A DNA stretch of 64,000 bases, from positions 4,836,001-4,900,000 of the forward strand of contig NZ_CP073714.1 of the NCBI RefSeq assembly GCF_023101145.1. The letters are read 5' to 3'. Below, piece after piece: positions 10,251 through 13,922 of this stretch; position 1 is the first letter of the stretch; each line of letters opens with the position of its first letter. This stretch comes from Paenibacillus pabuli. Lineage in GTDB: Bacteria > Bacillota > Bacilli > Paenibacillales > Paenibacillaceae. Under the pieces are notes generated by a model, which had not been told where the DNA came from, did no database searches, and worked only from the letters and a program-made list of their open reading frames with translations. The translations under genes and the position numbers were made by a program.

Positions 10251-13200
10251 TTATTCCCGTCCAATTTGCCCCAGTTGTACAGCCAGACTCTCCCATTCTT
10301 CGGCAGGAATTCCACTGGTCAGTGTCTCCTGAAGGGCACCCAAAGCCTCCTCGAGTCTCTCTTCCAATTGACGGGATTTATGCTGCAAAGACTGCCCAAG
10401 CTGATTGTCATAGAACTGGACCAGCTTATTCTCCGCAGCAGGCAGAACATCGATCACCATCTGTTTAATAACGGGGTCAAGTGCCTCCTGCAGCCGCTGT
10501 CGTCCATTTCCTTCAAAGAACTGTTTCGGATTACGGAAATAACTCAGATACGCTTTCCAACCCGAAGGTTCTTCCAAACGCACCTCTTCCAAAACAGGTG
10601 TACTCCAGCGTTCGTCCAGCGGCAACGACAGATCCATGCCTCCGGATAATCGTTTCAATTCATCTACACATTCGGTCACTTGCTTGAGCAGCCAAGACTG
10701 ACCCGCCTGTTCGAGTCGGAGTGTAGTCGCAAGCAGTTCCTGTTCCAGTTCGATGGCAATCATGCGCAGCAGTTCGCGACCGCATGCAGCGAAGGCTGCT
10801 TTCAGGTTTCCGCGATCCTCTCGAAGAACGGATGGATGGAACGCTTCTGCCATAAACAAGCCAAAATGATAACCCAGGCGCTGTCGCACATGGAACAGCA
10901 ATTCAGCCGTTTCCTGAGCCAACTCTGCCTTCATGGACCGTTTTGCGAGCAAATGTACCCTCTGAAGAGACTGTTCCTGGATTGAGCCCAGCTCATCCCG
11001 ACGTCGCTGTAGTACCTCTTCTCCCTGGGCTGCATCCTCGGCACGTGTCTTAAGACGTTTCATCACCCGTACGATCTCTTCAGAAGCTCCACCGACCGCA
11101 AGATCCGCAAGCTCTCTTCCTGCAAACCGGTTAAATTCTTCCTCGAACTGAATAAAGCCGGATTGCTCCAGCAATTTCGCATCGTTGCCTGTCTTGCCTT
11201 CCATTGCCAGCATGCTCGATACAGGAAAGAGGCGTGGTGCCCGAATGCCATTACTGCGCAGTTGTGTGCTCACATGGTCCAGTACCTGCTCCAACTCTTC
11301 ATCAGAGGAAGACAAGTCACTCGCATTAACGACAAAGAACATCTGATCCATTGCCGAGCTGTCTTTCACCCGTCCCAATTGATTCAGGAACTGTCGGTCT
11401 CCCTGAGAGAAGGCATGGTTGTAGTACGTTACGAAAATGAGTGCATCCGCATTCTTCATATAATTGAAAGTTACGCCTGTATGACGGGCATTCACGGAGT
11501 CTGCCCCTGGTGTATCTACAAGGACAATGCCTTGTTCTGTCACATCACAACTGTAGTACAGGTCGATACTGTTGACAAAGCAAGACTTTTTCTCATTGGC
11601 GACAAAGTTACGATATCCGTTTAGATCCACCAGAACATCCTGGCCCAGTTGATTGGCGGTACTCTCCCAGCCTGCTGCGGCTGCCTGCAAAAAGCTGTAG
11701 TGTGGACGCCCCGCCGGATGCACATCCTGTGGAGAAAGGGCTTTGACCCGTTTTTGCCAGTCTGCCCCAGGCTCGCCCAGTCCAAGCAACCGGAAGGAAT
11801 ACGCGAGATCCTCCTGGAAGGCATCCAGGGTCTTCATCCGGACACGGGCAGTTCCATGCTCCGTGCCACCGGACGGAGCCATGATCCGGTTAATTGCCGC
11901 TGTCGTTGGATGCGGCGAGACCGGTAATACGGCTTCGCCCAGCAGCGCGTTGGCGAAGGAGGACTTGCCGGCGCTGAACGCTCCGAACAGCGCCAGTGTA
12001 AACGTGCCGCCCGCAAGCGAAGCCGCGCGTGCACGCAGATCCCGTACCGCCGACCCCATGGCGGGGTACGGCTCTACCAGCGCAGCAGCGGCTTCCAGCC
12101 GTGCCGCCGCTGCGTCCAGGCGCCGGCGGCGCTGTGCGCCAGCCGCCGGCTGCCCGTGCACCGCCGCTGTGCGCGGCGGCGGTGCCCCTGGAGTCTGTGG
12201 CTGCGCAGCCACAGACTCTGCCGTGCCCGTGTGCGGGCCGGGTGTTTCACCCGGCTCGTGCGCGGGCACGGGCGGGCCCTGCACCTCCGGCAACAGCCCG
12301 GAGGTGAGGGGGCCCGCAGGAGGCAGCAGGCTGCGCAGCCCTGCTGCCTCGGCGTCGGCGGCACGCTGGAGCGCCGTGTAGCGCGCCGCCGACGCGGATT
12401 GCGCCAGCAGCGCTGCGCGGCTGGCGTCCAGCGCCTGGAGCGCGGCTTCGCCCTGCGCGCCAAGCGCCTCAAGCAAGCGGTCGGCCAGCATCATGGCCGA
12501 CCTGCGGTAACGGGCCTCAATCTCGCCCCGTACATCTTTGCTGAATTGAAGCACATACTCGGGAGATACCTCTGCGCTGGCGCTCCGCTTCATCTCCAGC
12601 AGTGCTTCATCTATCACAGGCAGCTCCGCGTTCAGCGCCTGCTCCCACTCCGCGCCCCACAGCTGATGGGACTCTCCCAGCTGTCTGAGCATCGTACGGA
12701 TATGAACCTCGACTTGTCCCGAAACCTGATCCTGCAAAAGTCTAACAAGTTCAGCAGCACGACGCTGTTTCTCCTGTTCGGTCTTGCCACCAGAGAACAA
12801 TAAGCCTACACGGAAACCAGATTTACGGCTCTCCAAATAGGCCGCGGCTGAGGTACGAATATCGGCAGGGGTCAGGTTCGCATTCGCCAAAAGGGGTTCC
12901 AACTCTGCCCGGAACTTTTCACGTTCACGCGAGGGTTTGGAACGAAGTTCCGCTTCCTTTTGATCCAAGAGACCCAGCTCCCGTTCCAGGCGTTCAATAC
13001 CTTCCTTGCCCCCAACTTCCTCCAGGAGCGCTATCTCTTCCTCTTCGCGTTCCTCCGCCTGTCTTGTCAGATGCTGCTCCGTCACATGGCTCGCAGAGCT
13101 TGCAAGGCTGTGCTTGATTAACCCTTCCTTCTCATTCATCATATGATCAATCAGTTGAGGAAGCTGCTCCCACTGGTTGTAACGATGCTCCTTGTCCCGA

Positions 13201-13922
13201 AGCGAAGTAAACAGCAGACCATCATACCGAACTTCCCAGGCTGCAAAAATAGCTTCTACACCTTCAACATATTCGTCAAACGAAAGCTCCCGTTCCCGAT
13301 GTTTATCAATCTGGTTTACGATAAGAAACAACGGTTTGCCCCAATCCGATAGACTTTTGGCAAAGGAAAGATTGCTTTCCGATTGCACATGGTTATAATC
13401 CATCACATAGAACACCACATCGGCAAGATGCAGTGCTGAATGTGTTGCAAGGCTGTGGCCCTGATCGGTCGAATCCACGCCTGGCGTATCCAGTAATACC
13501 GCATCATCTTTCAGTAGGGGAATGTCATCCCATACTTCTATGGAGGTGTATGCCCCACCATTCTTGCAGTACTCCTCCAATTGTTCGGGCGAAACCTCAA
13601 GAACTCCCGCAGAATTGTCAGCGCTTACGTTCGATGACGTATAAATGAGTGCTCTCGGCTCACCGTTACGGATGGATACAACATTCGCACTTGTAGGTAC
13701 AGGACTCGAAGGCAAAACCCGCTTGCCACATAAACTATTAATTAGACTCGATTTGCCTGCCGAGAAGTGTCCACAAAACGCAATCGTTAACTGTTTCATT
13801 TCCGCCTTACTGATCAAATCCGTTAAAGCCTGTACAGCTGTATGGTCCCCTGTCTGCTCCATCGCTTCTCGCAGTGGAAGCAGAGGTATAGCCATCTCTA
13901 CTGGGTAATCTGTTCTGGACAT
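10251..13922 (-). CDS. dynA: Bacterial dynamin-like protein with two GTPase modules (DynA-type)
   Basis: This 1223-residue protein is a tandem fusion of two dynamin modules, as in B. subtilis DynA (YpbR, about 1190 residues), which tethers and fuses membranes and aids recovery from membrane damage. Module 1 shows G1 GHFSAGKSS (about 51-59), G3 DTPGVD and G4 NQIDK. Module 2 shows G1 GAFSAGKSS (about 648), G3 DTPGAD and a variant G4 NASD. Long helical stalk regions follow each. The linker (about residues 499-601) is Ala/Pro/Arg-rich and encoded by very GC-rich palindromic DNA unlike the rest of the gene. It has its own terminator and appears monocistronic. Confidence 0.93.
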   Translation of the reverse strand: MSRTDYPVEMAIPLLPLREAMEQTGDHTAVQALTDLISKAEMKQLTIAFCGHFSAGKSSLINSLCGKRVLPSSPVPTSANVVSIRNGEPRALIYTSSNVSADNSAGVLEVSPEQLEEYCKNGGAYTSIEVWDDIPLLKDDAVLLDTPGVDSTDQGHSLATHSALHLADVVFYVMDYNHVQSESNLSFAKSLSDWGKPLFLIVNQIDKHRERELSFDEYVEGVEAIFAAWEVRYDGLLFTSLRDKEHRYNQWEQLPQLIDHMMNEKEGLIKHSLASSASHVTEQHLTRQAEEREEEEIALLEEVGGKEGIERLERELGLLDQKEAELRSKPSREREKFRAELEPLLANANLTPADIRTSAAAYLESRKSGFRVGLLFSGGKTEQEKQRRAAELVRLLQDQVSGQVEVHIRTMLRQLGESHQLWGAEWEQALNAELPVIDEALLEMKRSASAEVSPEYVLQFSKDVRGEIEARYRRSAMMLADRLLEALGAQGEAALQALDASRAALLAQSASAARYTALQRAADAEAAGLRSLLPPAGPLTSGLLPEVQGPPVPAHEPGETPGPHTGTAESVAAQPQTPGAPPPRTAAVHGQPAAGAQRRRRLDAAAARLEAAAALVEPYPAMGSAVRDLRARAASLAGGTFTLALFGAFSAGKSSFANALLGEAVLPVSPHPTTAAINRIMAPSGGTEHGTARVRMKTLDAFQEDLAYSFRLLGLGEPGADWQKRVKALSPQDVHPAGRPHYSFLQAAAAGWESTANQLGQDVLVDLNGYRNFVANEKKSCFVNSIDLYYSCDVTEQGIVLVDTPGADSVNARHTGVTFNYMKNADALIFVTYYNHAFSQGDRQFLNQLGRVKDSSAMDQMFFVVNASDLSSSDEELEQVLDHVSTQLRSNGIRAPRLFPVSSMLAMEGKTGNDAKLLEQSGFIQFEEEFNRFAGRELADLAVGGASEEIVRVMKRLKTRAEDAAQGEEVLQRRRDELGSIQEQSLQRVHLLAKRSMKAELAQETAELLFHVRQRLGYHFGLFMAEAFHPSVLREDRGNLKAAFAACGRELLRMIAIELEQELLATTLRLEQAGQSWLLKQVTECVDELKRLSGGMDLSLPLDERWSTPVLEEVRLEEPSGWKAYLSYFRNPKQFFEGNGRQRLQEALDPVIKQMVIDVLPAAENKLVQFYDNQLGQSLQHKSRQLEERLEEALGALQETLTSGIPAEEWESLAVQLGQIGRE
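12122..12426. repeat. Array of consecutive GC-rich palindromes inside dynA
   Basis: Eight hairpin-forming inverted repeats follow each other: 12122-12150, 12158-12185, 12191-12218, 12221-12271, 12272-12317, 12320-12350, 12352-12395 and 12402-12426. The third is a perfect 28-base palindrome. The third and sixth share the 12-base core GGCTGCGCAGCC. The array stays in frame and encodes the linker between the two dynamin modules. GC content is visibly far above the flanking sequence. Confidence 0.85.

Follow-up and report, generated by a model that had tools for sequence, protein, structure and literature searches.

The run of inverted repeats in the linker of the dynamin-like gene dynA is real and lies far beyond chance expectation, and it belongs to a small class of hairpin islands carried by unrelated Paenibacillus genes. 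Among relatives, the dynA island is conserved as pairing and position, not as sequence. From these sequence comparisons we infer both selection and function, i.e. that GC-rich intragenic fold-back islands may be kept by purifying selection acting at the DNA level, a reading to which slightly less than an even chance is given.

The hairpin island of dynA

The open reading frame at 10251-13922 on the minus strand, dynA, encodes a tandem dynamin-like GTPase of 1223 aa with two Dynamin_N stretches in Pfam, and its product is 96% identical in the named relatives Paenibacillus taichungensis and P. xylanivorans. The island sits within the linker between the two GTPase modules, where a block at 12122-12426 has a GC content of 79%, compared with 47% for the window (the whole 64 kb stretch of DNA that was analysed), and consists of eight abutting inverted repeats with arms of 9 to 24 nt. 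Stems cover 160 of 300 bases at the block, against a mean of 5.5 (sd 11.8) per 300-base window, which is the highest coverage among 4,577 windows of 300 bases from 464 kb of the same genome.

All eight inverted repeats of the original prediction were found at the positions it gave. Hairpin 1 (12122-12150) pairs GCCGGCGGC with GCCGCCGGC over 9 bp around an 11-nt loop, and hairpin 2 (12158-12185), intact in the nearest species only, pairs GCACCGCCGC with GCGGCGGTGC over 10 bp around an 8-nt loop. Hairpin 3 (12191-12218) was confirmed as a perfect 28-nt palindrome, GAGTCTGTGGCTGCGCAGCCACAGACTC, and is the longest short-loop stem in the 64 kb window. Hairpin 4 (12221-12271) has 24-nt arms that are 83% complementary across a 3-nt gap, with double changes at several pairs, and is followed by the nested hairpin 5 (12272-12317), made up of GCGGGCCC/GGGCCCGC plus the 9-bp stem CACCTCCGG/CCGGAGGTG, which overlies the recurrent peptide motif SGLLPEV. 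Hairpin 6 (12320-12350) pairs GAGGCAGCAGG with CCTGCTGCCTC over 11 bp, hairpin 7 (12349-12398) has 19-nt arms that are 89% complementary around a 12-nt loop, and hairpin 8 (12402-12426) has 12-nt arms that are 92% complementary. The predicted sharing of a 12-base core, GGCTGCGCAGCC, between two hairpins was likewise confirmed, with copies at 12199-12210 and at 12329-12340, the second lying at the centre of hairpin 6. The claim of a real structural feature inside a linker is thereby borne out. The accompanying statement that adjacent sequence shows nothing similar was inexact, as further hairpins occur beyond the block at 12081-12114 (12-nt arms, 92% complementary) and 12479-12502 (a perfect 9-bp stem, GGTCGGCCA/TGGCCGACC). 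The whole island of inverted repeats extends over 12081-12502, approximately codons 474-614 of dynA, and four-fold divergence and GC content per 50 codons place the elevation of synonymous conservation and GC out to approximately codons 451-700.

Folded as RNA, the minus (coding) strand of the block reached -234 kcal/mol compared with -183 ± 5.7 in dinucleotide shuffles (z -9.1), and the plus strand folded as DNA gave z -8.8 against dinucleotide shuffles; across dynA, the antisense strand folds equally well or better than the sense strand. When shuffles preserved both the protein and its codons the block still gave z -8.9, with z +0.6 and -1.9 for two other stretches of dynA, and the codon-preserving values over the dynA linkers and rbsK tested ranged from -5.6 to -8.9.

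Hairpin islands in unrelated genes

The wider genome was sampled as 80 stretches of 20 kb, covering 1.66 Mb (22%). Hairpin content was at expectation in coding windows generally (z 0.03 ± 1.09). Coding stretches in this 1.66 Mb with a GC content of at least 0.70 over 300 nt were hairpin-enriched in seven of seven cases, with a z of -4.7 to -8.2 in the best window. Besides dynA, islands were located in rbsK, encoding ribokinase (L074:7699-8700, equivalent to G000:C1:107699-108700, in the second half of the gene and within the catalytic domain), an RskA-like anti-sigma factor (L097:11148-12125), the HrpB helicase (L223:9522-12035), a ComFA-like helicase (L245:1863-3842), a transglutaminase (L213:7708-10068) and an Ala/Gly-rich protein with no Pfam or NCBIfam match (L222:17559-19601). 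The ComFA name is a tentative assignment, presumed from the domain layout together with weak helicase matches. Each island is a row of hairpins placed end to end, whose loops are ordinary and whose Watson-Crick stems are nearly perfect; GC content is high in the stems and ordinary in the loops, and the rbsK island has GC-rich hairpins and synonymous constraint centred on stems. The seven genes have no common function or theme, and the islands are not confined to linkers, those of dynA and the RskA-like gene falling between domains, that of rbsK inside the catalytic domain and that of hrpB inside the helicase.

The rbsK, RskA-like, ComFA-like and Ala/Gly-rich islands came from stretches chosen regardless of sequence, and dynA was given beforehand. 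Since the stretches holding the transglutaminase and HrpB islands had been chosen for an all-G/C 19-mer, five is a fairer count than seven, and extrapolation without these two leads to a rough guess of approximately 20-30 islands per genome. All-G/C 19-mers were rejected as island markers, as they occur at only three genomic places, dynA not being one; another observation is that one of these three 19-base runs, at G000:C1:6792278-6792297 (L244), lies outside coding windows of at least 66% GC. The seven island genes are all on the leading strand, which is uninformative given that approximately 80% of the coding sequence is also leading-strand, and a leading-strand bias was consequently dropped. 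Loss of the hairpin nuclease SbcCD was also discarded as a cause, SbcD being found in 12 of 12 genomes.

The original prediction had considered that such palindromes might be equally dense in many unrelated GC-rich genes and explained by base composition alone. The density does recur in the other GC-rich coding islands of this genome, but is not accounted for by composition or codon usage. More local secondary structure and more short inverted repeats than expected have been described for bacterial coding sequences in general (Katz and Burge 2003 and Ladoukakis and Eyre-Walker 2008, cited in PMC4060949; see also PMC1590033). The islands resemble this trend in that inverted repeats occur in protein-coding DNA beyond the expectation from codon use. 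However, the general trend spans whole gene sets, whereas the islands are rare, discrete, GC-rich stretches of 300-800 bases against a background z of 0.03, and they show strong stem-centred synonymous constraint.

Conservation of the island across relatives

Alignment of dynA across relatives, as originally suggested, showed that the block is present in near species and missing from some lineages. In the 30 closest dynA genes of the genus it is kept at nearly the same length, and the island is also found in other genera of the family and in part of the order. A local GC island was present in 52 of the 75 dynA genes from named genomes, with a z of -3 or lower in 50 of these 52, and was absent from others among the 75, such as L324, L328 and L366; dynA genes without an island still carry an aligned linker, of different composition. 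As some lineages have lost it, the island is not essential.

Within the conserved position, individual pairs and hairpins have turned over. The outer A-T pair of hairpin 3 is C-G in most relatives and its inner T-A pair is A-T in L014 and L024. Distant congeners, at about 53-55% protein identity, carry different hairpins at this position, such as the 17-bp stem of L065, and the SGLLPEV stem has been kept or swapped pair by pair in relatives at this level of identity (L059, L063, L065).

Synonymous constraint and compensatory change

Divergence was compared in dynA, rbsK, hrpB and the RskA-like and ComFA-like genes, with 15 to 41 species each. Pooled over the five genes, four-fold site divergence was 0.097 for stems and 0.256 for loops of the islands, as against 0.42-0.48 outside the islands, figures that set many related species against one reference and are therefore not independent comparisons. 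The partial conservation of the loops perhaps stems from imperfections in the predicted structures. Four-fold sites occupied by G/C diverged by 0.046 in long stems compared with 0.175 in island loops, and those occupied by A/T by 0.150 compared with 0.355. Slowest of all, at 0.040, were pairs within helices of at least 5 bp in which both sites are four-fold, as against 0.35-0.48 over the remainder of the genes, i.e. stem sites free of protein constraint do not evolve at a neutral rate. In the negative control, predicted stems outside the islands were just slightly slower than loops.

Double changes were counted between independent sister pairs, using as a control partners slid by 1 to 4 bases. 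There were 32 double Watson-Crick changes across the five genes compared with 3.1 in the slid controls, and 12 compared with 0.5 in dynA alone. The islands therefore show compensatory pair changes, as structured RNA does, and also arms homogenised by paired changes, as sequence-directed mutagenesis would leave them.

Selection or copying between arms

Hairpins within bacterial genes have been ascribed both to selection for structure and to neutral self-repair of inverted repeats, two explanations that are difficult to separate. The islands offer replicated natural tests, since the models differ in what they predict at identifiable sites. An alternative to selection, to which roughly a quarter of the weight is assigned, is that the islands are a functionless, self-maintaining mutational product. 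Polymerase template switching would perfect imperfect inverted repeats, perhaps aided by a G.C bias in the repair of G.T and A.C mismatches, and GC-rich hairpins would renew and reinforce themselves at any site where the protein can accommodate them. Stems can arise and be mended by template switching between their arms, a process that predicts both arm homogenisation and compensatory changes (PMC8794818, PMC8604942), and the same copying and the same prediction are attributed to Ladoukakis and Eyre-Walker in PMC4060949. Such a process would account equally for strand symmetry, for the occurrence of islands in unrelated genes, for high-GC stems with ordinary-GC loops and for the turnover of individual hairpins.

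The islands are like the products of template switching or sequence-directed mutagenesis (PMC8794818, PMC8604942) in having perfect stems and paired substitutions, coding DNA included, but unlike them in that the stems are several times slower than the gene, even where neither partner is constrained by the protein. Under unbiased copying neutral sites are left unslowed, and a synonymous site would be slowed only if its partner were protein-constrained, so the value of 0.040 at long-helix pairs in which both sites are four-fold favours purifying selection on the fold and indicates that neutral arm-to-arm copying alone is insufficient. Copying with a GC bias should hold G.C pairs fixed and accelerate the A/T sites of stems, but the latter are also slowed (0.150 versus 0.355 in loops). 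A mutation hot spot should also outpace its gene, whereas the island diverges less in more distant sister pairs. A lower mutation supply in stems, or a mixture of copying and selection, may alternatively account for the pattern.

The molecule under constraint

A base pair under selection in mRNA would be expected to accept G.U more readily than A.C. One-sided stem changes in the five genes produced 181 G.U and 176 A.C (p 0.83; slid-control ratio 1.06), with nearby terminators too invariant to provide a positive control, and in long stems A.C outnumbered G.U at four-fold sites, by 40 sites to 22. Because G.U and A.C are approximately equal, selection on mRNA pairing is unlikely; this equality, together with antisense folding at least as strong as that of the sense strand, makes the constraint strand-symmetric, as expected for DNA and as would mark a DNA cruciform or hairpin element. 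The comparison of G.U with A.C is strong evidence, though short of final.

It is accordingly improbable that the islands are selected mRNA hairpin chains that slow ribosomes or protect the message, such that the first GTPase module folds before the second is made. An mRNA role would fit the excess of local mRNA structure over expectation in bacterial coding regions (Katz and Burge, cited in PMC4060949), the mRNA fold z of -9 and the placement of several islands between domains (dynA, RskA-like). Against it stand the ratios of 181:176 and 22:40, the even better folding of the dynA antisense strand and the presence of like islands inside the catalytic domain of ribokinase and inside HrpB. The translational pause between modules suggested in the original prediction is not favoured, because one-sided changes show no preference for G.U on the mRNA and because of these islands in ribokinase and HrpB. 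A search of Rfam returned no match at gathering score in the 64 kb window, with chance-level miRNA matches only on the block, and a known RNA family was thus rejected as its identity.

Comparison with repeat and binding-site arrays

A second copy of the block was not found in the 7.6 Mb genome, and the genome-wide search for the 12-base core that had been proposed recovered only its two sites in the block. An array of sites bound by a sequence-specific protein, another of the functions first suggested, would explain why two hairpins have this core in common, but the core is absent from the rest of the genome, the other hairpins have no common motif, and the stems change sequence pairwise between species. 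Beyond the one pair of 12-mers, no common motif was found within the array or across genes, and a binding array is considered very unlikely.

Rickettsia palindromic elements are palindromes that lie in frame within protein genes, and the dynA palindromes, being in frame in a coding gene, could by analogy be an accumulation of small palindromic mobile elements, as was first envisaged. This is judged barely credible. The islands lack the repeat family, the signs of insertion and the dispersal of the Rickettsia elements; neither block nor core has the many related genomic copies typical of RPE, MITE and REP elements, relatives do not show insertion-type presence and absence, and about 40 near species share the length and position of the block. 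A mobile or dispersed-repeat reading is not supported, as block and core are found at a single locus and the position is conserved by descent. REP/BIME palindromes, as described in PMC3733652, are small hairpins in extragenic arrays with consensus sequences in common; the islands are similarly arrays of small palindromic hairpins, but are intragenic and without a common consensus.

The 79% GC and Ala-rich composition of the block could suggest an assembly error or a mere consequence of high GC and Ala/Pro codons, but this reading has practically no probability, being already contradicted by the z of -8.9 against shuffles preserving GC and Ala/Pro codons, by stem-specific conservation and by agreement among independently assembled genomes.

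A possible DNA-level mechanism

Of the original interpretation as a whole, the idea of a DNA structure survives in broadened form, mobile elements are not supported and the translational pause is weakened. The evidence base for purifying selection on the DNA comprises structure in excess of expectation, the deep persistence of the dynA island, compensatory change, strong stem-centred synonymous constraint and the alike behaviour of the two strands. In this reading, once the duplex is opened or underwound, be it in a cruciform, at the replication fork or in the wake of RNA polymerase, either strand would collapse into a chain of hairpins serving as a structural signal or sink. Candidate roles include a pause for the fork or polymerase, a landing place for a structure-binding protein and a sink for supercoils. 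The linker protein of DynA would merely accommodate the island, its richness in Ala, Pro and Arg being a consequence of the DNA. Counting against a DNA fold, GC-rich imperfect inverted repeats extrude reluctantly as cruciforms.

More tentatively, and with the balance of probability somewhat against it, Paenibacillaceae chromosomes may contain a few dozen intragenic DNA fold-back islands selected independently of the proteins they interrupt, with a possible role in topology, fork handling or the recruitment of structure-specific proteins. If true, coding sequence would conceal a class of chromosomal elements.

Effects on assemblies and rate estimates

Islands coincide with assembly and reading-frame breaks at dynA in many public Paenibacillaceae genomes. 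Drafts from many genera are interrupted within this linker. In 15 draft genomes outside the genus the two halves of dynA lie on different contigs, parted at the linker, and several drafts inside the genus part dynA likewise, whereas rbsK and hrpB in the same genomes are hardly ever split in this way. The assembly breaks are an independent sign of hard-to-sequence DNA, for which high GC alone could be the cause. On single contigs, dynA is read in two pieces in G005, G010, G054, G084, G102, G130, G147, G148 and G172, mostly meeting near the hairpin linker, and these are more likely to be sequencing errors than true gene splits. The ComFA-like island gene is also on two contigs in several drafts (G018, G020, G032, G056, G071). 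The islands further distort dN/dS: at codons 551-600 of dynA (approximately 12122-12272), divergence is greater for amino acids (0.29) than for four-fold sites (0.17), a pattern that a dN/dS test would misread as positive selection.
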